A stretch of DNA of 64,000 nucleotides from Pseudomonas silesiensis (lineage in GTDB: Bacteria > Pseudomonadota > Gammaproteobacteria > Pseudomonadales > Pseudomonadaceae). This document shows, in pieces, positions 1-18,877 of this stretch. The DNA lies in the NCBI RefSeq assembly GCF_001661075.1, contig NZ_CP014870.1, positions 5,709,703 to 5,773,702 on the forward strand, in the 5' to 3' direction. Position 1 is the stretch's first letter; each line of letters starts with the position of its first letter. The translations under genes were made by a program, and so were the position numbers. The notes beneath the pieces were generated by a model. That model saw nothing but the letters and a program-made list of their open reading frames with translations, ran no database searches and was not told the origin of the DNA.

Positions 1-489
1 GACTCCACCTACGGCCCCTGCTACCGCCATACCCAAGTTGCTCGCGACACGACTCAACGACTGCGCACGAACGCGCTGCGCAACCTGGCAATACTCCATG
101 ATCAAACGCTGGTGCAGCGTACGAATCGCCCCATCGAGTGCACCGCTGATCAGCAGCAATCCAGCCAGTAAAGGCACCTCGGTGACCAGCCCCAACAGAA
201 CCAATACCCATGCCGAGCCAAAAAACAACAAAGCGGTGAGCCGCGCCGTTGAAAAATGGTCGCTCAGCAGGCCACCACCCATCGATCCAATCAGCAAGCC
301 GGCCCCGTAACCAGATAACAGCCAGCCAACGGTTTCAATCGCAAGCCCCAACTCCTGACGCAGGTACAACGCCATGAACAGTTTGACCATGGCGCTCAGC
401 CGACTGATGAAGATCAGCGCAGCAAGCATCCAGGCCATTGGACAGAAATAGCCGTTTAGCCGAATAAAATGAATGAGCCGACTAGTCAT
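1..489 (-). CDS. MFS exporter, 3' end outside the window
   Basis: The first 163 codons of a major facilitator superfamily permease are present; the rest lies beyond base 1. The protein starts at an ATG that overlaps the last 8 bases of the preceding acyltransferase gene. Hydrophobic segments are seen at about residues 16-42, 54-76, 85-102 and 106-120. The loop between the second and third holds a motif-A-like pattern (GGGLLSD, then R83), typical of drug:H+ antiporters and other MFS carriers. Its place as last gene of a tightly coupled operon with two enzyme-like proteins suggests export of, or self-resistance to, the product they make; that is inference. The substrate cannot be told from the sequence. 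Confidence 0.8.
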   Translation of the reverse strand, partial: MTSRLIHFIRLNGYFCPMAWMLAALIFISRLSAMVKLFMALYLRQELGLAIETVGWLLSGYGAGLLIGSMGGGLLSDHFSTARLTALLFFGSAWVLVLLGLVTEVPLLAGLLLISGALDGAIRTLHQRLIMEYCQVAQRVRAQSLSRVASNLGMAVAGAVGGV

Positions 490-1534
490 CCCATTCATCC
501 AGGTTGTGACTCACCTGGCTATGAATACCTTTTGAAGCGAAAGGAATGTCCGAACGGATCTCGTGATTTGCATCGAAAAAATACTGCGCTTGTAGCCGTC
601 CTTCAGCATCCAGACCTATCAGAGGATTGTTTACCAAGAATTGTCTGGTTGAAGGACAAAGCGTCGGCGCTCGAATCAATAATCGCCATTGGCCAAAAGC
701 GTTACCTGGAATAACAGCCCGTGCCCCAAAGCGTTTTTTGTATTGGAAAGTACCTTTACTCAAAAACGGCTCACACCCTTGGAAGTCGACACAATCAATG
801 AACGATTGACTGGACGCCCATTTCAGAATTGCGTGATAGACAAAGTTCTGCGCTCCATTTGCTCGATGAATGGCGGCACCACCGTCCACCCCAATCAATC
901 GTGCATTCAGGGTGCGTGTTGACGTATCCATCTGCGAAATACTCCCAGCCACCCATTCATCATTCAAATGGACGCGGAACAGCATTCCACGCTTGAACAA
1001 TTGCGAATAAGCCGCTTGCTCTTGCACACTTCTTGCCAATGTCCCATAACGAGCGTTCATGGTCGGGACATGCATGGAACGGTAAAAGGAGAAGAAATGC
1101 TCATCATCCAGTGACACATCGAAACAAAAGCCTTTTTCGACCAATTGAGCATGGCGCTTGCTCTCTCGATTAGAGAACTGCCCCAACACAGCCCTCCAGT
1201 TTTTGGAAACATCAACTTTCTGGTGAATTCTGCTGAGCCCAATAATATCGCCTGGCCTCTGGCATTGCCGAATCACATCCAACGAAGTCATTAATAAAAT
1301 TATACCGGCTCGATTTTGGCTAATAAAAACCTCAAGCTGCTTCCATTCCAACGTACCTTCTTGCTCTACGAATGAATGTTCAAAAAAACATTGATCCACA
1401 AAAGGTGCAATGTAGAGAAGTCCTTCTGCCATTCCGACGTAGACAAGACGCGTCGGTATCCCAGCTTTGGAGCTTCCCTTGTAGATGCGAAAATGGCAAA
1501 GTGACTCCGGATTCATTAGAAGATCAGCGCTCAT
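482..1534 (-). CDS. FemAB/GNAT-like acyltransferase (Acetyltransf_6 type)
   Basis: A 350-residue protein with a C-terminal GNAT-like core at about 115-285. The supporting pieces are SNRESKRH at 121-128, the strand VAGSIS at 195-200, the helix GAQNFVYHAILKWA at 227-240 and the segment LSKGTFQYKKRFGA at 258-271, a pattern usual in FemX/BioF2-like N-acyltransferases that use aminoacyl-tRNA or acyl-CoA donors. The first 110 residues would be the degenerate N-terminal GNAT half. It overlaps the upstream gene by 4 bases (ATGA) and the downstream MFS gene by 8, so translation is probably coupled. Donor and acceptor are unknown; it may acylate or add an amino acid to a small molecule made by its partner. 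G+C is clearly below that of the core genes in the window. Confidence 0.65.
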   Translation of the reverse strand: MSADLLMNPESLCHFRIYKGSSKAGIPTRLVYVGMAEGLLYIAPFVDQCFFEHSFVEQEGTLEWKQLEVFISQNRAGIILLMTSLDVIRQCQRPGDIIGLSRIHQKVDVSKNWRAVLGQFSNRESKRHAQLVEKGFCFDVSLDDEHFFSFYRSMHVPTMNARYGTLARSVQEQAAYSQLFKRGMLFRVHLNDEWVAGSISQMDTSTRTLNARLIGVDGGAAIHRANGAQNFVYHAILKWASSQSFIDCVDFQGCEPFLSKGTFQYKKRFGARAVIPGNAFGQWRLLIRAPTLCPSTRQFLVNNPLIGLDAEGRLQAQYFFDANHEIRSDIPFASKGIHSQVSHNLDEWDD

Positions 1535-2916
1535 GGTTCGCAGTGACTGCGAAGTATCTCCATCATCTCTTCAGCATTGCTAACGAATGTCAGTCCATCA
1601 GTAGGGATGACTTCATAGTCCCCTCGGCAATAGGAACCCGATGCATGAATGGTGCAACCGTCCATTCCCACCAGTAACTGTCGGTCAATCGCATTCAAGC
1701 AACCTGTCATGGCCATCACCAATGACCATTCTTTCAGATCCCTGGGGTCTGCGGGCAATCTGACGGGTGTATCAGCCAGCAACTGGGCACATTCACTGTA
1801 GCGCTGCATGCACTCATAGAGCGAAACGACTATTCCCGAGCCCCCATTGGCTTTGACCAATCCGCTCATTTCTACGGCGGTAGGCGGAAGGTGCGTATAA
1901 AAAGTAGGTTCAAGAATTTCGTCGGGGCTCCAGGTCGCGGCAGGAAAATGCGGTGACTCCAGCTGAACCCATAAACCATTGGATGCCTTTGTGTAACTTG
2001 GCGTAGAAGCACCCTCGAAATTTCCATCAAGTAAATGCAGTACCATGTCACTGGTTGCCAGATGCTGAACCAAGAGAAATGAAGGCGTGGAAACCTGTTT
2101 CTTGTGTTGTTTCAGTACTTCTACGCCAGAGCAATATCCTAAAAGACCATATGCACTCGACACTGCATGCACATGAACGGTCTTGCGATCAGTGTCCCAA
2201 GCATCACCATACTCGAAGTCGAAAAACGCCCGAGTTTGATCAGAGAATCGGTAATTTTCAAGCCGAAGGGAATGCCATAACTTCAACTCACCCATTGGAT
2301 TATGGCTGAAAAGCGACTTGAACTGCTGCCCAACAACCTTCACTGCTTCCGGCGAGGCTGTATCTAAAACGAACACAGGGTTCAATGCACGCAACCGAAC
2401 ATCATCGTAAAGTTCGGTTCTACGAACTTTACCGATCGTCTGCGCAGGCGTCAGCGTGACAATGCGCAATTGCTCCGGATGAACCAATTTTGCTTTCAAC
2501 GCACGTAGAACCGCGTCACGGAGTGCAATGGCTTTGTTACCGGACGAAGGAGAAAACAACAGAATGCTGTCCCCGGTCTCCTGAATATGGCGAATGGCAC
2601 GTGCAACGATCAGTGTCGAAGCCAAGGTCTTTGTCGTTTGAGTATTCGCATTTTGCCTCAAATCGAATAATCGTAACGGTACCCCGCGGTAATTGCCCAT
2701 CTCAAAAAATTGCGCAGTAGCAACAGAAAGAAAGGACTGCATGCGAGCATCCAGCGGAGGTAGCTTCATGGCTGGTTCAAATGCATCGCTGCAGTGGTCA
2801 AATTCAAAATCGGCGACACTACTGACGATCAGATCGTAGTAGCGCTCGATTACGGAAGTGGGAGTTTGAGCTCGCTGTGTCGCCTGCGCGGCTGAACCGG
2901 TTTTAATCACGTCCAT
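1531..2916 (-). CDS. PLP fold-type-II (threonine-synthase-like) protein, possibly DUF6002
   Basis: A 461-residue protein resembling threonine synthase and other fold-type-II pyridoxal-phosphate enzymes. TQTTKTLAS at 92-100 sits where the PLP-binding lysine motif (S-x-K-D) is expected, with Lys96 as candidate. SSGNKA at 124-129 matches the phosphate-cradle SGN motif. HASGSY near 424-429 recalls the C-terminal threonine-synthase motif. The usual Asp after the lysine is replaced by Thr, so activity may differ or be lost. From memory it fits the family labelled DUF6002, found in biosynthetic clusters; this is unverified. First gene of a three-gene coupled operon (ATGA overlap with the acyltransferase). 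A GGGAG ribosome-binding site lies about 9 bases before the ATG. The reaction is unknown. Confidence 0.55.
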   Translation of the reverse strand: MDVIKTGSAAQATQRAQTPTSVIERYYDLIVSSVADFEFDHCSDAFEPAMKLPPLDARMQSFLSVATAQFFEMGNYRGVPLRLFDLRQNANTQTTKTLASTLIVARAIRHIQETGDSILLFSPSSGNKAIALRDAVLRALKAKLVHPEQLRIVTLTPAQTIGKVRRTELYDDVRLRALNPVFVLDTASPEAVKVVGQQFKSLFSHNPMGELKLWHSLRLENYRFSDQTRAFFDFEYGDAWDTDRKTVHVHAVSSAYGLLGYCSGVEVLKQHKKQVSTPSFLLVQHLATSDMVLHLLDGNFEGASTPSYTKASNGLWVQLESPHFPAATWSPDEILEPTFYTHLPPTAVEMSGLVKANGGSGIVVSLYECMQRYSECAQLLADTPVRLPADPRDLKEWSLVMAMTGCLNAIDRQLLVGMDGCTIHASGSYCRGDYEVIPTDGLTFVSNAEEMMEILRSHCEP

Positions 2917-3099
2917 TTGTCTTTTGCTCCCACTGCTGAATAGGTGCTGAGTGCGATGTCCTCTGAAAGCTAGGCGTTCACGGCTTGGTTGTCGCGGGTA
3001 AAAAAGAGTCGATAACGCAAAAGCAGAACCAAGCTACGAGATCAGGAAAAAAATCCTACAGAAAGACCTCACTTTCTATCGACATGGGGCTCTCCGACA

Positions 3100-3200
3100 A
3101 TTCGACTTGCCCGCGATGGCGGTGTATCAGTTAATGAATCGCTGAATGACACTTCGCAATCGCGGGCAAGTCGAATCGTCGCACCGCCGCTCCCACAGAG
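3100..3200. repeat. REP-like inverted repeat
   Basis: Two perfect 16-base arms (3101-3116 and 3160-3175, reading TTCGACTTGCCCGCGA and its complement) enclose a 43-base spacer, followed by a CCGCTCCCACAGAG tail like a REP end. It lies in the 344-base space 2917-3260, which otherwise holds only the presumed promoter of the PLP-protein operon; no gene is seen there. Confidence 0.6.
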
Positions 3201-3260: not shown

Positions 3261-3533
3261 TCAGGCAGAAGAGGATCTTGTGTTGGCGATCGACGTCTGG
3301 CTGTCGTCCTCGCCCTCGTCACCTTCCATAGAATCGTCCTCATCCGTGCTGCCAGCCAGCAGCAGGTCACCCGGCTCTGATCCGGATTGGGCAATCATCG
3401 TCTCGCTCTGCGTGCCCTGCCAATTCCAGGCCTGCTTTTCATGGTCCTGACATTCCGCCCATGCTGCCGACGAACCGAGGGACAGTAGGACCAACACCTT
3501 CAGCAACAACACACCGCGTAGAAACATGCTCAT
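3261..3533 (-). CDS. small secreted acidic protein, unknown function
   Basis: A 90-residue protein if it begins at the ATG at 3533, chosen because GGAGG lies about 10 bases before it; the longer frame to 3647 has no such site. Residues 1-26 form a clear signal peptide (a Leu/Val-rich core, then SSAAWA before Glu-Cys), so the product should be periplasmic or secreted. The mature part is about 64 residues, with two aromatic residues near the start (AWNW) and a strongly acidic tail (DEDDSMEGDEGEDD). No known domain is recognised. It stands alone, on the same strand as prfC and separated from it by a REP palindrome. It could be a fast-evolving envelope protein; coding status is supported mainly by the signal peptide and ribosome-binding site. 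Confidence 0.5.
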   Translation of the reverse strand: MSMFLRGVLLLKVLVLLSLGSSAAWAECQDHEKQAWNWQGTQSETMIAQSGSEPGDLLLAGSTDEDDSMEGDEGEDDSQTSIANTRSSSA

Positions 3534-3712
3534 AGCCAACGCCCTCCTGCCCACGACGAACCCGGGTGCCGTGGCGTTTGTGCGAGATCCAGTTGTAATC
3601 GAGCGGGTTCTCAAACCAGGACGTTGATGATCGCCGGGAAATGCCATGGGTGCAGAGAATGGTTTTGCATAATCGCTATGGCGAATGGTTATTTAACAGC
3701 CCACAGATGCCC

Positions 3713-3868: not shown

Positions 3869-5452
<1,584 letters not shown>

Positions 5453-5780: not shown

Positions 5781-6497
5781 GTGGCTATTCGCTATGGCAA
5801 GGGGCTGATAGGAGGTGCGGTTGTCGTCGCCCTCCTGGCCCTGCTGGTCCACTGGATTGGCATCAACACGATCGAACATTACCGCGACGATTTGTTGTTT
5901 TACCTGCAAGCTCATTTGATTCTCGTCCTCGTTTCCATGCTGGCCGCCCTTGTTGTGGGCATACCCGCCGGTATCTTCCTCAGCCGCCCGACCATGGTTG
6001 GACGCGCCGAACGCTTCATGCAGATCTTCAACATCGGCAACACCGTGCCGCCTCTCGCCGTGCTGGCCATCGCCCTGGGTGTCCTCGGCATCGGCAGCGG
6101 CCCCGCAATCTTCGCCCTGTTCCTCGCCTCGCTGTTGCCGATCGTGCGCAACACCTATGAAGGCCTGAAAAACGTCCAGGGTTCGCTCAAGGAAGCGGCC
6201 GTCGGCATCGGCATGACACCGACTCAGGTGTTGTGGCGGGTCGAACTGCCGAACGCCGTGCCGATCATCATCGGTGGCGTGCGCGTGGCGCTGGCGATCA
6301 ACGTCGGTACCGCACCCCTGGCGTTCCTGATCGGCGCCAACAGCCTGGGCAGCCTGATTTTCCCCGGCATCGCCCTGAACAATCAGCCGCAACTGATGCT
6401 CGGCGCGGCGTGCACCGCCCTGCTGGCCTTGCTGCTCGACGGCCTGGTGACACTCGCCAGCCGCCTCTGGCTCGAACGCGGGCTGCGCCCGTCTTAA
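5781..6497 (+). CDS. opuCD: osmoprotectant ABC importer, permease subunit 1
   Basis: A 238-residue inner-membrane permease of the ProW/OpuB/YehW family with about six hydrophobic segments. It holds the cytoplasmic EAA loop (EAAVGIGMTPTQVLWRVELP), which contacts the ATPase. It starts at GTG with GGAG 8-9 bases upstream. First gene of a four-gene operon: permease, binding protein, permease, ATPase. This is the reverse of the opuCA-CB-CC-CD order I recall from P. syringae, and the symbol follows from that; orthology is not proven. Such systems import glycine betaine, choline or carnitine under osmotic stress. Confidence 0.85.
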   Translation: MAIRYGKGLIGGAVVVALLALLVHWIGINTIEHYRDDLLFYLQAHLILVLVSMLAALVVGIPAGIFLSRPTMVGRAERFMQIFNIGNTVPPLAVLAIALGVLGIGSGPAIFALFLASLLPIVRNTYEGLKNVQGSLKEAAVGIGMTPTQVLWRVELPNAVPIIIGGVRVALAINVGTAPLAFLIGANSLGSLIFPGIALNNQPQLMLGAACTALLALLLDGLVTLASRLWLERGLRPS

Positions 6498-6517
6498 GCC
6501 TCGGCAAAGGAATCGAT

Positions 6518-7411
6518 ATGAAAAAACTATGCTTATTTTTAGGCTGCGCCCTGCTGTTCGCAGGATTTGCCCAAGCCGCTGAAAAACCTGTAATCCGCAT
6601 CGGCGCCCGGGTGTTCACCGAACAAACCCTGCTCGCGGAAATCACCTCCCAGTACCTGCGCACCAAGGGTTACGACACCCAGGTGACCGGCGGTCTGGGC
6701 AGCACCCTCGCTCGCAGCGCTCAAGAAAGTGGGCAACTGGACCTGATGTGGGAATACACCGGCGTGTCGCTGGTGGCTTACAACCATGTCACTGACAAAC
6801 TCGACAGCGCTCAGTCCTACGCCCGGGTGAAAGAACTCGACGCGAAAAAAGGCCTGATCTGGCTCACCCCGTCGAAGTTCAGCAACACCTACGCCCTGGC
6901 GCTGCCGGAAAAGACCGCGAAGGCTTATCCGCAGATCAACACCATCAGCGAGCTGAACACGGTGATGCAGGCCGAGGCGAAGACCAACCACCTCGTCGCC
7001 CTAGACACCGAGTTCGCCAACCGTTCCGACGGCATGGCCGGCATGGTCGACCTCTACGGCATGAACCTGACCCGTAAAAACACCCGCCAGATGGATGCCG
7101 GGCTGGTCTACACCGCCCTGCGCAATGGTCAGGTGTTTGCCGGCCTGGTCTATACCACCGACGGTCGTTTGAACGCCTTCAAGCTCAAACTGCTGGAAGA
7201 CGACAAGCACTACTTCCCCGACTACACCGCCGCGCCGGTCGTGCGCCAGGAGTACCTGGACGCCCATCCGACACTGGCGGAAGACATCAAACCGCTGGCC
7301 GAGCTGTTCGATGACGCCACCATGCGTGCGCTGAATGCGCGGGTCGATGTCGATCACGAAAGCCCTTCATCCGTTGCCGCAGATTTCCTGCGCCAGCACC
7401 CTATCAACTGA
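6518..7411 (+). CDS. opuCC: osmoprotectant-binding periplasmic protein
   Basis: A 297-residue solute-binding protein of the OpuAC/OsmF family. It starts at the ATG at 6518, 20 bases after the first permease, behind AAAGGAA. A signal peptide covers residues 1-20 (Leu/Phe-rich core, GFAQA then AEKP). The mature protein begins with the family pattern IRIGARVFTEQ and contains the region LWWEYTG-like (LMWEYTGVSLVAY), which lines the quaternary-ammonium ligand site in this family. Delivers a betaine-like substrate to the two permeases beside it. Exact ligand not readable. Confidence 0.88.
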   Translation: MKKLCLFLGCALLFAGFAQAAEKPVIRIGARVFTEQTLLAEITSQYLRTKGYDTQVTGGLGSTLARSAQESGQLDLMWEYTGVSLVAYNHVTDKLDSAQSYARVKELDAKKGLIWLTPSKFSNTYALALPEKTAKAYPQINTISELNTVMQAEAKTNHLVALDTEFANRSDGMAGMVDLYGMNLTRKNTRQMDAGLVYTALRNGQVFAGLVYTTDGRLNAFKLKLLEDDKHYFPDYTAAPVVRQEYLDAHPTLAEDIKPLAELFDDATMRALNARVDVDHESPSSVAADFLRQHPIN

Positions 7412-7423
7412 GGAGGAAAAGAC

Positions 7424-8077
7424 ATGGAATTTTTGAACGCCTTTTCCCATCTCGACTGGGCGCAGGTCGCGCAATTGACCTGGCAGCACATCACCCTGGT
7501 CGGCATTGCCGTGACATTGGCGATCCTCGTTGGCGTGCCGCTGGGCATCCTGATGACGCGCTTCCCGACACTCGCCGGTCCCTTGCAAGCCAGCGCCACG
7601 GTGCTGCTGACCGTGCCGTCGATTGCCCTGTTCGGCCTGCTGCTGCCGTTCTACTCGAAATTCGGCCAGGGCCTGGGCCCGATGCCGGCGATCACGGCAG
7701 TGTTCTTGTACTCGCTGCTGCCGATCATGCGTAACACCTACCTCGCCCTGACCGGCGTCGAACCCGGCATTCGCGAAGCCGCCCGCGGCATCGGCATGAC
7801 CTTTGGCCAGCGCCTGCGCATGGTCGAGCTGCCGATCGCCGTGCCGGTGATCCTCGCCGGTGTGCGCACCGCCGTGGTCATGAACATTGGCGTCATGACC
7901 ATCGCCGCGACCATCGGCGCCGGTGGCCTTGGTGTACTTATTCTCGCTTCAATCAGCCGCAGCGACATGTCGATGCTGATCGTCGGCGCCGTGCTGGTCA
8001 GTCTCCTGGCCATCTTCGCCGACCTGCTTCTGCAATGGCTGCAACGCACGCTGACTCCAAAAGGACTCCTGAAATGA
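7424..8077 (+). CDS. opuCB: osmoprotectant ABC importer, permease subunit 2
   Basis: A 217-residue permease of the ProW/YehY family, partner of the permease at 5781. The EAA loop (EAARGIGMTFGQRLRMVELP) precedes the conserved VPVILAGVRTAVV stretch. About five to six membrane segments. A strong ribosome-binding site (GAGGAGG) lies directly after the binding-protein stop. Its stop overlaps the ATPase start by four bases (ATGA), so the two are probably translationally coupled. Confidence 0.87.
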   Translation: MEFLNAFSHLDWAQVAQLTWQHITLVGIAVTLAILVGVPLGILMTRFPTLAGPLQASATVLLTVPSIALFGLLLPFYSKFGQGLGPMPAITAVFLYSLLPIMRNTYLALTGVEPGIREAARGIGMTFGQRLRMVELPIAVPVILAGVRTAVVMNIGVMTIAATIGAGGLGVLILASISRSDMSMLIVGAVLVSLLAIFADLLLQWLQRTLTPKGLLK

Positions 8078-9231
8078 TCGAACTTCAAAACCTCAGCAAG
8101 ACCTTCCAAAGCAACGGCAAAGATGTGAAAGCCGTGGACTCGGTAAGCCTGACCGTCAATGAAGGCGAGATCTGTGTGTTCCTCGGGCCATCGGGCTGCG
8201 GCAAAAGCACCACGCTGAAGATGATCAACCGTCTGATCAAGCCGACCTCGGGCAAGATCCTGATCAATGGCGAAGACACCACCGACCTCGACGCCGTGAC
8301 CCTGCGCCGCAATATCGGTTATGTGATCCAGCAGATCGGTCTGTTCCCGAACATGACCATCGAGGAAAACATCACCATCGTTCCGCGCCTGCTGGGCTGG
8401 GACAAGCAGAAATGCCACGACCGCGCCCGGGAGTTGATGAGCATGATCAAGCTCGAGCCCAAGCAGTACCTGACTCGCTACCCGCGTGAGTTGTCCGGTG
8501 GCCAGCAACAGCGGATCGGCGTGATTCGCGCCCTGGCGGCCGATGCGCCGTTGCTGTTGATGGACGAACCGTTCGGCGCGGTCGACCCGATCAACCGCGA
8601 GATGATCCAGAACGAGTTCTTCGAGATGCAGCGGGCGCTGAACAAGACGGTGATCATGGTCAGCCATGACATCGACGAAGCGATCAAGCTGGGCGACAAG
8701 ATCGCGATCTTCCGCGCCGGCAAGCTGTTGCAGATCGACCACCCGGATACGTTGCTGGCGCATCCGGCGGATGACTTTGTCAGCAACTTCGTCGGCCAGG
8801 ACAGCACGCTCAAGCGGCTGTTGCTGGTAAAAGCCGAAGATGCGGCGGACAACGCGCCGTCGGTGAGCCCGGAAACCCCGGTGGCCGAAGCGCTGGAATT
8901 GATGGACGAACTGGACCGTCGTTATGTGGTGGTCACGGATGGTGAGAATAAGGCGCTCGGTTATGTACGACGTCGCGACCTGCACCGTCAGACCGGCACT
9001 TGCGCGCAATACCGGCGCGAATTCAACGCCACGGCGGCGTACGACGAGCATTTGCGCATCCTGCTGTCGCGCATGTACGAGTTCAACCGTTCGTGGCTGC
9101 CGGTGATGGATGCCGAGCGGGTGTTCCTCGGTGAGGTGACCCAGGAGTCGATTGCCGAGTACCTGAGTTCCGGTAAGTCCCGTGGCGGCAAGACCAGCAT
9201 TGTTTCGCCGGCTGAAACTGCGGTCGCCTGA
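8074..9231 (+). CDS. opuCA: osmoprotectant ABC importer, ATPase with CBS domains
   Basis: A 385-residue ProV/OpuCA-like ATPase from the ATG at 8074; an upstream in-frame start inside the permease gene is not needed. Walker A is GPSGCGKST near 38-46, signature LSGGQQQRIG, Walker B LLLMDEPFGAVD, and the H-loop MVSHD. The C-terminal third carries a CBS pair (about 270-370), which in this family senses ionic strength or nucleotide and gates transport. Last gene of the operon; a REP palindrome follows at once. Confidence 0.92.
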   Translation: MIELQNLSKTFQSNGKDVKAVDSVSLTVNEGEICVFLGPSGCGKSTTLKMINRLIKPTSGKILINGEDTTDLDAVTLRRNIGYVIQQIGLFPNMTIEENITIVPRLLGWDKQKCHDRARELMSMIKLEPKQYLTRYPRELSGGQQQRIGVIRALAADAPLLLMDEPFGAVDPINREMIQNEFFEMQRALNKTVIMVSHDIDEAIKLGDKIAIFRAGKLLQIDHPDTLLAHPADDFVSNFVGQDSTLKRLLLVKAEDAADNAPSVSPETPVAEALELMDELDRRYVVVTDGENKALGYVRRRDLHRQTGTCAQYRREFNATAAYDEHLRILLSRMYEFNRSWLPVMDAERVFLGEVTQESIAEYLSSGKSRGGKTSIVSPAETAVA

Positions 9232-13793: not shown

Positions 13794-16109
13794 ATGTCAC
13801 GCCAACACTCACAATTACCGGTCAGTTCACCGCGTTTGCTTGCGTCTGCAATTGGCGTGGCGATCACTGCCGGCTCCGCTGGCCATATGGTTTTCGCTGC
13901 CGAGAAGACCGACGAGAAAGCGCCGGGCAATGCGATTTCCCTCGACGCCACTGCGATTAACGGCGAAGCCCAGGACGCGACGACCTACAACGTTGAAAAC
14001 GCCTCCTCGCCCAAGTACACCGCGCCGCTGGTCGACACGCCGCGCTCGATTACCGTGATCCCGCAACAAGTCCTCAAGGACACCGGCGCCCTCAACATGC
14101 AGGACGCCCTGCGCACCGTTCCCGGCATCACCTTCGGTGCCGGTGAAGGCGGTAACCCACAGGGCGACCGTCCGTTCATTCGCGGCTTCGATGCCCAGGG
14201 CGATACCTACCTGGACGGCGTGCGCGACACCGGTTCGCAAAGCCGCGAGATCTTCGCCGTCGAATCGATTGAAGTCAGCAAAGGCCCTAACTCGGCCATC
14301 GGCGGCCGTGGCGCTGCCGGCGGCAGCATCAACCTGGTCAGCAAGAAAGCCCACCTGGGCGACTCGCTCGACGGTGGCTTCACCTGGGGCTCGGACCAGA
14401 CACAGCGCTATACCCTCGACGGCAACTACCAGTTCACCGACACCGCCGCTGGCCGTCTGAACCTGATGAGCCACGAAAGCAACGTCGCCGGCCGGGACAA
14501 GGTCGATTACGACCGTTGGGGCATCGCCCCATCGCTGGCCTTCGGCCTGGGCACCGACACTCGGGTGAACCTCGATTACTACCACCTGGAAAGTAACGAC
14601 ACGCCGGATTCGGGCATTCCGTACACCATTCCTGCCGGCCTTGCTGCCGCCCGCACCAAGTCCAATCCGGACAAGCCTTACGCCGGTGGCGATGACAGCA
14701 ACTTCTACGGTCTGGACCGCGATTTCCGCAAGGGCCGCACCGACACCGCGACCTTCGCCATCGAGCACGACCTGAACGATGCGTTGACCGTCAAGAACAC
14801 CCTGCGCCACGGCAGCAGCATGCAGGATTACATCCTGACCCAGCCGGACGACTCCAAGGGCAACGTCAACAATGGCAGCGTCTGGCGTCGGGCCAACACC
14901 CGTGTCAGCAACACCACGACCACCACCAACCAGACCGATCTGTTTGGTGATGTGTACATCGCCGGCTTCAAGAACAGCTTCGCCACCGGTATCGAGCTGA
15001 GCCGCGAGGAAGGCAAGAAGTCCTCGTACACGGTCAACACCGACACCACGCCGGGTACCGCCGCCGCGACCACCAACTGCACCCCGGCCCTGATCGGCGC
15101 TGCGAGCAACTACAACTGCACCTCGCTGTCCAACCCGAACCCGAACGACCCATGGGACGGCTCCATCTCGCGCAACTACGCCGGCACCGACACCAAGGCC
15201 AAGACCTATGCGCTGTACGTGTTCGACACCCTGGAGCTGTCCGATCAGTGGCTGGTGAACATGGGCCTGCGTTACGACCATTTCGATACCGACTACAAGA
15301 CCTACAACGCCGCCGGCACCACCACGTCCAAAGGCGATGACGTCAGCGAATTCGTCACAGGCCAATTCGGCGTGGTCTACAAGCCGGCTGAAAACGGCAG
15401 TATCTATGCCTCGTATGCCACGTCCGCCACGCCACCGGGCAACACCCTGGGTGAAGGTCAGGAAGGCAACCCGCTGGGCGGCACCCCGGATCGCAACGGC
15501 AACCTGCTGAAAAGCGACATGGAGCCGGAAACCACCAAGAACTACGAGATCGGTACCAAGTGGGACCTGCTGAACGATCGCCTGTCCCTGACCGCCGATA
15601 TCTTCCGCACCGAGAAAGACAACGCACGTGTTCAAGTGGACACCACCTCGTACGAAAACGCCGGTAAAACCCGCGTTCAAGGTGTCGAACTGTCGGCCAC
15701 CGGCAAGATCACCGACAAATGGCAAGTCTTCGCCGGTTATGCCTACATGGACAGCGAACAAGTCGACGGCGGCCCGTTGGGCGCGGCCAACGACGGCAAC
15801 GAGCTGCCTAACACGCCGAAAAACAGCGCCAGCCTCTGGACGACCTACCAGGTCACGCCGAAGCTGACCATCGGTGGCGGCGCGTTCTACGTCGACGACG
15901 TATTCGGCAGCGTGGCCAATACCACCATGGTGGATGACTATGTACGTTACGACGCGATGGTGGCCTACAAGCTGACCAAAAACGTCGACCTGCAGCTGAA
16001 CGTGCAGAACCTGACCGACGAAACCTACTACGACAAAGCGTTCTCGACCCACTTCGCCAACCAGGCGGCAGGCCGTACCGCGTTGCTGAGCACCAACTTC
16101 CACTTCTGA
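13794..16109 (+). CDS. piuA: TonB-dependent siderophore receptor PiuA
   Basis: A 771-residue outer-membrane receptor. The start at 13794 has GGGGAGGGG 7 bases upstream; ATG 13788 is possible but too close to it. A signal peptide covers about residues 1-36, ending at VFAAE. The plug has the DTPRSITVIPQQVL TonB-box region and the RGFDAQ / YLDGVRD motifs, and the rest is the 22-strand barrel ending in Phe (STNFHF). Catecholate-type receptors of this branch (PiuA, Fiu, CirA) import ferric mono- or bis-catechol complexes. Likely Fur-repressed, divergent from piuC and followed by the reductase piuB. Confidence 0.93.
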   Translation: MSRQHSQLPVSSPRLLASAIGVAITAGSAGHMVFAAEKTDEKAPGNAISLDATAINGEAQDATTYNVENASSPKYTAPLVDTPRSITVIPQQVLKDTGALNMQDALRTVPGITFGAGEGGNPQGDRPFIRGFDAQGDTYLDGVRDTGSQSREIFAVESIEVSKGPNSAIGGRGAAGGSINLVSKKAHLGDSLDGGFTWGSDQTQRYTLDGNYQFTDTAAGRLNLMSHESNVAGRDKVDYDRWGIAPSLAFGLGTDTRVNLDYYHLESNDTPDSGIPYTIPAGLAAARTKSNPDKPYAGGDDSNFYGLDRDFRKGRTDTATFAIEHDLNDALTVKNTLRHGSSMQDYILTQPDDSKGNVNNGSVWRRANTRVSNTTTTTNQTDLFGDVYIAGFKNSFATGIELSREEGKKSSYTVNTDTTPGTAAATTNCTPALIGAASNYNCTSLSNPNPNDPWDGSISRNYAGTDTKAKTYALYVFDTLELSDQWLVNMGLRYDHFDTDYKTYNAAGTTTSKGDDVSEFVTGQFGVVYKPAENGSIYASYATSATPPGNTLGEGQEGNPLGGTPDRNGNLLKSDMEPETTKNYEIGTKWDLLNDRLSLTADIFRTEKDNARVQVDTTSYENAGKTRVQGVELSATGKITDKWQVFAGYAYMDSEQVDGGPLGAANDGNELPNTPKNSASLWTTYQVTPKLTIGGGAFYVDDVFGSVANTTMVDDYVRYDAMVAYKLTKNVDLQLNVQNLTDETYYDKAFSTHFANQAAGRTALLSTNFHF

Positions 16110-16116
16110 TAGAGAA

Positions 16117-16218
16117 CTGTAGGAGCGAGCTTGCTCGCGATGGTCGTCAACGATGACGCGGAAAACCTGACGCCCCGCGTCGCTCTCGGGTTTTTCGCGA
16201 GCGAGCTCGCTCCTACAG
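16117..16218. repeat. REPIN (paired REP palindrome)
   Basis: CTGTAGGAGCGAGCTTGCTCGCGA and TCGCGAGCGAGCTCGCTCCTACAG face each other; one arm has diverged slightly. It starts 7 bases after the piuA stop, before the piuA terminator. Confidence 0.85.
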
Positions 16219-16233
16219 TATTGGCGTTGGGCC

Positions 16234-16265
16234 AGGCCCCGTTCATCCTGATGAACGGGGCCTTT
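16234..16265 (+). terminator. terminator after piuA
   Basis: AGGCCCCGTTCATC-CTGATGAACGGGGCCTTT: a 12-13 bp stem with a short T run, between piuA and piuB. Confidence 0.8.
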
Positions 16266-16348
16266 GTGCGTAAAAAAGAATGCTTCTCGACCACCCACGG
16301 CATAATGCGCGCCGTGATGATTATTTTCGAACGAACAAGGCGAGCGAC

Positions 16349-18877
16349 GTGTTGAAGAAAACCCTGTTCCAGTTGCACTGGTTTTTCGGCATCAGCGCCG
16401 GGCTGGTCCTGGCCCTGATGGGCATCACCGGGGCCACGGTATCGTTTCAGGATGAAATCCTGAGCGTGCTGAACCCTTCTGTGCTGCAGGTCGAGAAGCA
16501 GGTCGCCGGCGTCCTGCCACCCGCCGAGCTGGTGGAAAAAATCGAAGGGGCCTCGGGCAAGAAAGTGGCGATGCTCTGGGTCGAGACCGATAGCGCAAAC
16601 GCCGCGCGAGTGTCCTTTACCCCACCACCGGGTGAGCGCCGCGGCGAGATGCGCTACTTCAACCCATACACCGCCGAATTCATGGGCAATGCCGTCGGCC
16701 AGGACTTCTTCGGCTTCATGCTGCAGCTGCACCGTTTCCTCGCCATGGGCGATACCGGTCGGCAGATCACCGGCGCCTGTACGCTGATCCTGGTGTTCTT
16801 CTGCCTGTCCGGCCTCTACCTGCGGTGGCCGCGCCAGTGGAACAGCTGGCGCGCCTGGCTGACCTTCGACTGGAAGAAAAAAGGTCGCAGCTTCAATTGG
16901 GACCTGCACTCGGTGGCGGGCACCTGGTGCCTGTTGTTCTACCTCCTGGCGGCGCTGACCGGGTTGTCCTGGTCCTATGAGTGGTACAACAAGGGCCTGA
17001 CGCGGCTGCTTTCCGATTCACCGCAGAATGAGCGTGTTCGCGGCGGCCGTGGTCCCGCACCAGCCGGCCCGGCACCGACCGCCGATTACGCGGCAATGTG
17101 GAGCAGCATCTACAGCGCCGCCGGCCCGGCCCTGAGTGCCTACAACATTCGTATGCCGCCAGTGGCCGGGCAACCGGCAACCGTGTTCTATCTGTTGAAC
17201 AGTTCGCCCCATGACCGCGCACTGAACCAGATCAGCCTCGATCCGGCCACCGGCATCGTCAAGCGCCATGACCGCTACAGCGACAAGAGCCTCAAGGCGC
17301 AGTTGCTGACCAGCATCTACGCGCTGCACGTCGGCAGCTATTTCGGAATCATCGGGCGGATCATCCTGACGCTCAGCGCGCTGACCATGCCGCTGTTCTT
17401 CGTCACGGGCTGGCTGCTGTACCTCGATCGTCGACGCAAGAAAAAGCAGATCAAGGATGCCCGCCAAGGCCTCGCACAATCAGACAGCAATGCGCCGGCC
17501 TGGCTGATCGGCTTCGCCAGCCAGAGCGGGTTTGCCGAGCAATTGGCGTGGCAGACCGCCGGGCAATTGCAGGCCGCCGGCCTGCCGGTGAAAGTTCAGC
17601 CTCTGGCGGAGGTCAGCGAGCAGGATCTGCGCGATTCCAGCAACGCACTGTTTGTGGTCAGCACTTTCGGCGACGGTGAAGCGCCGGACAGCGCCCGGGG
17701 CTTCGAACGCAAGGTGCTGGGCCAGGCGCCGAGCCTGGAAAGCCTGAACTATGCGGTGCTCGGCCTCGGTGATCGGCAGTACCAACACTTCTGCGGTTTC
17801 GCCCGACGCTTGCACACCTGGCTGGGCATGCACGGCGGCAAGACCCTGTTCGCCCCGGTGGAAGTCGACAGCGGCGACCCCTACGCCTTGCGTCACTGGC
17901 AGCAGCAACTCGGCCTGGTGACCGGACAGGCGCCTGTGGACACCTGGCAAGCGCCCGGCTATGACCACTGGACTCTGATCCGCCGGGATTTGCTCAACCC
18001 TGACAGCAGCGCCTCGGGCGTGTACTTGCTGGGCCTCGCCGCCCCTACCACCAGCAGCTGGCTGGCCGGGGACCTGGTGGAAGTGCTGCCGCGCAATTGC
18101 CCGTGGGCGATCGAGCACTTCCTCGATGGCCTGGGCATCGACGGTCGAGCCACGGTGACGCTCGACGACCTGTCGCAACCGCTGGAGCAAGCTCTCGCCA
18201 GTCGACAGTTGCCCGAGAACCGGACCCATCTGGTCGCTCTGCACGCGCAAGCGCTGGTGGACGCCCTGATACCGTTGGCCATGCGCGAATACTCCATCGC
18301 CTCGATTGCCGCCGATGGCGTACTGGAACTGATCGTGCGCCAGGAACTGCACCCCGACGGCAGGCTCGGCATCGGCTCCGGCTGGCTGACCGAACATGTG
18401 CCGGTGGGCGGCACCGTCAGCCTGCGGGTACGCCGCAACAGCGGTTTCCATCTGCCGACCGAGCCGGTACCGATGATTTTGCTGGGCAACGGTACAGGGC
18501 TGGCGGGGCTGCGCAGTCTGCTCAAGGCGCGGATTGCCGACGGGCAGCAGCGTCATTGGCTGTTGTTCGGCGAGCGCAATCGCGAGCACGACTACCTGTG
18601 CCGCGATGAACTTGAAGAGTGGCTGATTTCGGGCGATCTGGAACGGTTGGACCTGGCGTTCTCGCGGGATCAGGCCGAAAAGATCTACGTGCAGGATCGA
18701 CTGCGCGAGTCGGCCTCGGAACTGAAGAAATGGCTGGCGGAGGGCGCGGTCATTTACATCTGCGGCAGCTTGCAGGGGATGGCTTCAGGGGTGGATCACG
18801 CGCTCAATGAAGTGCTCGGAATCGAGGAGGTTGACCGCCTTATCGAGCAGGGTCGCTACCGCCGCGACGTCTACTGA
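16349..18877 (+). CDS. piuB: PepSY membrane flavoreductase PiuB
   Basis: An 842-residue fusion. Residues 1-370 are a PepSY-associated membrane domain (first helix begins [16 protein letters not shown], four helices in all). A flavodoxin domain follows at about 388-520 ([20 protein letters not shown]) and then an FAD/NADPH cytochrome-P450-reductase module (RxYSIAS-like [16 protein letters not shown]-terminal RYRRDVY). It starts at GTG behind AAGG. The layout suggests electrons pass from NADPH through FMN and heme or quinone across the inner membrane to reduce ferric siderophore in the periplasm, as inferred for relatives such as FpvG and PA4513. Lies downstream of piuA with its own short upstream region. 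Confidence 0.85.

Follow-up and report, generated by a model that had tools for sequence, protein, structure and literature searches.

A DUF6002, FemAB-like and MFS gene cassette in Pseudomonas silesiensis that may encode a tRNA-dependent pathway to an exported amino-acid conjugate

Three overlapping genes between prfC and a dpp-type operon

We analysed a stretch of 64,000 nucleotides of the Pseudomonas silesiensis genome (the window: positions 5,709,703 to 5,773,702 of NZ_CP014870.1), which is a single contig of 6.8 Mb. Bases 1-2916 carry three overlapping minus-strand genes, here called the cassette: a DUF6002 gene, a FemAB-like gene and the gene of a major facilitator superfamily (MFS) carrier. 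An earlier note, made from the sequence of the window, had taken them for an operon that makes and exports an amino-acid-derived product.

All three frames are present and overlap as that note had described. DUF6002 and the FemAB-like gene share ATGA at 1534-1531. The overlap between the FemAB-like and MFS genes is ATGACTAG at 489-482 if the second ATG of the MFS gene is used, and 17 nt if its first ATG (498) is used; either start is possible because relatives align from MFS residue 1 to 6 onward. When the sequence left of base 1 was included, we found that the MFS gene extends 819 bases past the window edge, to C1:5708884, for a full length of 438 amino acids. It forms the 3' end of the cassette, and a dpp-type peptide ABC (ATP-binding cassette) transporter operon adjoins, with dppF as the downstream neighbour. 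The lower G+C content noticed earlier was also borne out: 49.7% for DUF6002, 46.6% for the FemAB-like gene and 54.3% for the MFS gene, compared with 59.0-62.6% in five neighbours (prfC and four dpp genes). In third codon positions G+C is 46-61% in the cassette and 78-81% in these neighbours. The names prfC, dppF and dpp are presumptive.

Table 1. Features at the left end of the window
Feature	Position	Strand	Basis or remark
DUF6002 gene (PF19465), first gene, 461 aa	1531..2916	-	Open reading frame (ORF) list, Pfam
FemAB-like gene, double-GNAT by model, second gene, 350 aa	482..1534	-	Starts inside DUF6002 stop
MFS carrier gene, third gene; N-terminal 166 of 438 aa within window	1..498	-	PF07690, E 1.4e-41
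prfC, upstream neighbour	3869..5452	-	ORF list; same flanks at other loci
Inverted repeat upstream of cassette, 42-nt arms, 81% complementary	3088..3188		Repeat search

The inverted repeat upstream of the cassette has a similar counterpart downstream (L002 14739-14840, 44-nt arms, 86%), and both resemble REP (repetitive extragenic) palindromes. One weak sigma-70-type site (3423-3394) precedes DUF6002, and no terminator was seen in the promoter/terminator scan ahead of that gene. Between prfC and the cassette, at 3261-3647, is a small frame that begins with a signal-like sequence, and at locus L004 it likewise precedes the cassette. In other loci matches to this frame sit between MFS and dppF, and the local gene order around it seems to have changed between loci.

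Predicted folds and conserved residues

The DUF6002 protein scores 551.7 bits against Pfam PF19465, its sole Pfam match at E values up to 1. It does not match the Pfam PALP family (PF00291), and its gene is not among the 15 PALP places in the host genome. The structure model is confident (predicted local distance difference test, pLDDT, 92.1) and has the fold of fold-type-II pyridoxal phosphate (PLP) proteins. With both Foldseek and VIA-align the nearest structures are threonine synthases and CapA2, which we take to be a cysteate synthase. By predicted fold, then, the protein that the note had called PLP fold-type-II-like is a putative fold-type-II PLP enzyme. Although it shares this predicted fold with threonine synthase (ThrC) and CapA2, it is only 10-18% identical to them and, over its 461 amino acids, has conserved blocks of its own, such as HAVSSAYGLLGY. 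K96 (in TQTTKT), the candidate PLP lysine, is kept in 77 of 78 aligned rows; an SSGN loop at 124-127 has S125 and N127 in all 78; and position 426, the candidate pyridine-nitrogen residue (here S426), is S in 72 rows, T in 5 and C in 1, with the roles of all three sites assigned tentatively from known motifs and a weak alignment. The DUF6002 sequence profile found no match among solved structures, and searches with DUF6002 of PHROGs and of a plasmid collection likewise gave no match.

One entry of the plasmid collection, NZ_LT559118.1 of Nonomuraea gerenzanensis (11.85 Mb), is chromosome-like in length. Elsewhere in the host genome we observed a ThrC-like protein of 486 amino acids with SKDFAA (L091, C1:5942868-5943578) and a second protein (L092) that is ThrC-like judging by its start.

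The FemAB-like protein, described earlier as a FemAB/GNAT-like acyltransferase, gave a model (pLDDT 91.7) with a double-GNAT (GCN5-related N-acetyltransferase) fold. Its nearest solved structures are Sbb17, Sba18, FemX and MprF, all of which are aminoacyl-tRNA-dependent. Sbb17 and Sba18 take Foldseek ranks 1-3, followed by FemX and MprF, and with VIA-align FemX ties with Sba18. The model suggests that this protein is likely an aminoacyl-tRNA-dependent transferase. We found K260, Q264 and K266 in 50 of 50 FemAB-like rows, K266 lying in the conserved block QGCEPFL(S/T)KGTFQYKK, and a lysine also in those distant relatives in which the block was seen, L073, L074 and L075. Passages of PMC12945691 name the lysines FemX Lys305 and DhpH-C Lys329. 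If the positions correspond, the invariant K266 could stand for these residues. The FemAB-like profile gave no real match to solved chains (two chance-level rows), and Pfam Acetyltransf_6 matches 9 of 50 members, the window's own not among them. PHROGs returned one row of unknown function for the FemAB-like protein (E 0.0092), and a search of viral contigs for it gave no match.

Like Sba18/Sbb17, Orf11 of BD-12, VlmA, DhpH-C, DhpK and PacB, the protein is double-GNAT by its model and encoded in a small operon. Unlike those GNAT-fold natural-product transferases, its gene has DUF6002 as partner, and the cassette contains no nonribosomal peptide synthetase (NRPS) or phosphonate gene.

The assignment of the third protein to the MFS carriers was upheld by its Pfam match (Table 1). 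The nearest of 14 NCBIfam rows is YdeE (PRK10054), with residues 38-391 of the carrier aligned to 26-380 of the model. The score of 78.3 bits is far under the curated cut-off of 582, and the carrier is thus not a YdeE equivalog. In E. coli, YdeE is an MFS carrier that exports dipeptides and arabinose, according to passages of PMC9600279.

Linkage of the two enzymes and MFS genes without them

A search of 298 Pseudomonas genomes found DUF6002 in 8 of them, and a search of 398 genomes across the phylum found it in one, the host itself. The FemAB-like profile matches 10 of 398 Pseudomonas genomes, comprising nine full genes and one fragment. DUF6002 adjoins the FemAB-like gene in all nine full-gene genomes, and in the Pseudomonas genomes searched the pair was not seen apart (8/8 and 9/9). 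At 13 of 13 distinct intact loci (the host, eight from one reading, L051, L052, L053 and L065) the order DUF6002, FemAB-like, MFS and the strand are kept, on the dppF side of prfC; prfC itself is on the stretch in 11 of these, the stretches of L004 and L005 beginning past it. Ratios of nonsynonymous to synonymous substitution (dN/dS) for six pairs per gene were 0.080-0.168 for DUF6002, 0.111-0.208 for the FemAB-like gene and 0.112-0.187 for MFS, with lower values in the core genes prfC and dppD (0.009-0.093). This indicates purifying selection on all three cassette genes. With gene order and strand the same at all 13 loci and dN/dS at 0.08-0.21, the cassette is more than a chance unit.

At L009 (Pseudomonas reactans) a frame of 754 amino acids (14375-16639) lies between the cassette MFS and the dpp operon. 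Silent sites differ less between L005 and L010 in the cassette genes (dS 0.14-0.26) than in dppD (0.48), and strains may therefore have exchanged the cassette recently at this site.

Outside Pseudomonas we judged linkage from protein listings, by longest contigs of equal length and by one pair of locus tags. We found that 25 of 64 FemAB-like rows have a longest contig as long as that of one of 119 DUF6002 rows, whereas a shifted-length control gave a mean of 0.24 and at most 3. Twelve of these matches are not in the Pseudomonas-like block, against a mean of 0.13 and a maximum of 2 with shifted lengths, and since five of the twelve are on contigs shorter than 9.3 kb, the two genes must be close there. 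Actinoalloteichus hoggarensis has a FemAB-like/DUF6002 pair with neighbouring locus tags, 002060 and 002059; for Streptomyces cucumeris, Pantoea sp. At-9b and Anaerobacillus isosaccharinicus equal length shows the same contig only. By equal lengths, DUF6002 and the FemAB-like gene are linked in other phyla far above chance. Actinomycetota are frequent among the named DUF6002 rows (best 120 of 1001), a scan of genome contigs yielded Pseudomonas alone, and in a class sample of 274 genomes the FemAB-like matches besides the host are distant relatives only. One of the 25 matches, P0121 with P0025 (2813 bases), is likely a coincidence because P0145 fits the row better.

The earlier note had looked to the three genes staying together. 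This held for the two enzymes in the genomes read but not for the carrier. A close MFS (E at most 1e-100) is present in 17 of 119 Pseudomonas genomes, four with the cassette and 13 without the enzymes, and to that extent the scattered homologues that the note had named as evidence against its operon do exist for the MFS gene. In all 13 the lone MFS lies between prfC and dppF, as in the cassette loci. A whole-genome search with the DUF6002 profile found no match in 14 genomes, these 13 and G137; it recovered three of three known carriers, and a 53-residue remnant in G137 escapes it. That remnant belongs to a deletion scar (L064), in which DUF6002 residues 1-53 are fused in frame to about the last 35 FemAB-like residues, with an intact MFS gene next to it. 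A second in-frame fusion, the metagenome protein P0044 (535 amino acids), joins about 267 DUF6002 residues to about 268 FemAB-like residues with other end points. An MFS row sits on an equally long contig; an assembly error is possible for this fusion.

Two loci, L005 and L065, carry the cassette with a second MFS behind it. In a midpoint-rooted MFS tree all lone and second copies fall into a single clade (100/100) nested among the cassette copies, and the MFS of the scar joins that of the L065 cassette (100/99); the backbone forks are middling (88/85, 89/88 and 88/74). The first split of an outgroup-rooted FemAB-like tree, L008/L009 (82/76), is the same as in the MFS tree, with the Pseudomonas clade at 95/95. 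In the DUF6002 tree Pseudomonas forms one group with only 59/57 support. The flanking genes give a weak tree, with only 3 of its 24 inner branches starred, and the question of gain or loss therefore leans on the MFS and FemAB-like trees. These suggest an origin of the lone MFS within the cassette MFS, and together with the scar they suggest that lone MFS genes mostly reflect loss of the enzymes with the MFS kept. For lone MFS genes dN/dS is 0.084-0.118 (six pairs, two involving a second copy), which points to purifying selection, and the lone copy of L050 has a frameshift. A scan of the 13 lone-MFS gaps for enzyme remnants found none that was convincing, one match of 31 amino acids (E 0.010) being taken as chance.

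In L040 two transposase-like frames, recognised by eye, lie at 6071-8592 between prfC and the lone MFS. An apparent remnant of the MFS C-terminus in L004 was not counted, because it is probably a repeated sequence between genes.

Alternatively, the MFS could be an old Pseudomonas transporter with a job of its own, outside any pathway, upstream of which the enzyme pair was inserted. Absence of the pair from 13 of 17 genomes agrees with this, as do the higher G+C content of the MFS gene than of the enzymes and the lack of convincing enzyme remnants in the gaps, and rooting the MFS tree on the lone branch would make the cassette MFS, with that of the scar, one clade. However, when the outgroup-based first split of the FemAB-like tree is used, the lone clade nests within the cassette MFS. 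Moreover, both kinds of MFS are present in L005 and L065, the scar is a clear instance of enzyme loss that spared the MFS, which groups with a cassette MFS, and a search of 76 genomes of the order for the MFS (E up to 1e-20) turned up that of the host only. We consider an old transporter unlikely, although it deserves some weight.

A possible tRNA-dependent pathway

The explanation that we favour, if only by a little, is that the cassette encodes a minimal tRNA-dependent pathway to an exported amino-acid conjugate, with the MFS as exporter and immunity protein. DUF6002 would carry out a PLP-based replacement or elimination on an activated amino acid, thereby making or altering an amino acid. 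By analogy with threonine synthase and cysteate synthase, its substrate may be phosphorylated homoserine or serine. Passages of PMC11211663 place a cysteate synthase among the first two enzymes of a pathway that starts from L-phosphoserine; passages of PMC9304779 do not mention the enzyme. The FemAB-like protein would take an amino acid from a charged tRNA and attach it to the amine of the DUF6002 product. The resulting dipeptide-like compound would be toxic and is likely an antimetabolite, and the MFS would export it and protect the producing cell. Cells that kept the MFS after losing the enzymes would be immune non-producers, and a lone MFS at the same site would fit a self-protection gene.

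Two observations weigh against a general linkage of the two enzymes. These searches found 1001 relatives for DUF6002 but 65 for the FemAB-like family, and therefore many DUF6002 proteins must act without a FemAB-like protein or with a partner too distant to be recognised. In addition, no DUF6002 was found near distant FemAB-like relatives (at most 74 bits; four gammaproteobacterial genomes, 5 of 7 places read).

The same genes could instead form a resistance cassette, in which the two enzymes would disarm an amino-acid-like poison from other producers and the MFS would pump it out. Eliminating enzymes occur within fold type II, and drugs can be inactivated by certain proteins with a GNAT fold. 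The structure matches include serine dehydratases for DUF6002 and Eis for the FemAB-like protein; the retention of the MFS alone and the rarity of the cassette (8 of 298 Pseudomonas genomes) also suit a resistance role. However, the nearest folds are threonine synthases and aminoacyl-tRNA-dependent transferases, which would be odd for a detoxifier, and PADLOC, which has anti-phage models only, returned no family for the three cassette proteins at E up to 0.01. We regard a resistance cassette as improbable. It is very improbable that the FemAB-like protein acts on the cell wall or a membrane lipid with DUF6002 supplying an unusual amino acid, since for all the closeness of FemX and MprF in the structure searches, 350 amino acids leave no space for the membrane part of MprF, no more than 9 of 398 Pseudomonas genomes have the complete gene, and it is constantly accompanied by the gene of a PLP-type protein and, in Pseudomonas, by that of an MFS.

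More tentatively, the tRNA-dependent pathway may represent a new two-enzyme route to dipeptide-type antimetabolites that extends across phyla. Its exporter would double as immunity, and the enzymes would have been lost at least twice with the exporter kept at the locus, leaving producers, immune non-producers and a scar. Small operons with a GNAT-fold, tRNA-dependent enzyme for peptide formation are already known. As far as the literature searched reaches, the novelty lies in the family of the PLP partner, in the gene composition of the cassette and in the retention of the exporter: DUF6002 (PF19465) was not found named there, no paper describing such an operon was found by titles and abstract starts in the literature on FemAB, FemX, MFS, PLP and dipeptides, and nothing was found on orphan immunity.

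If the pathway is as we propose, it would give a first function to the DUF6002 family, of which we found 1001 proteins. It would also add a compact class of tRNA-dependent natural product, made without NRPS, that might escape cluster finders, and the lone MFS genes would be a natural experiment on self-resistance outliving antibiotic production.
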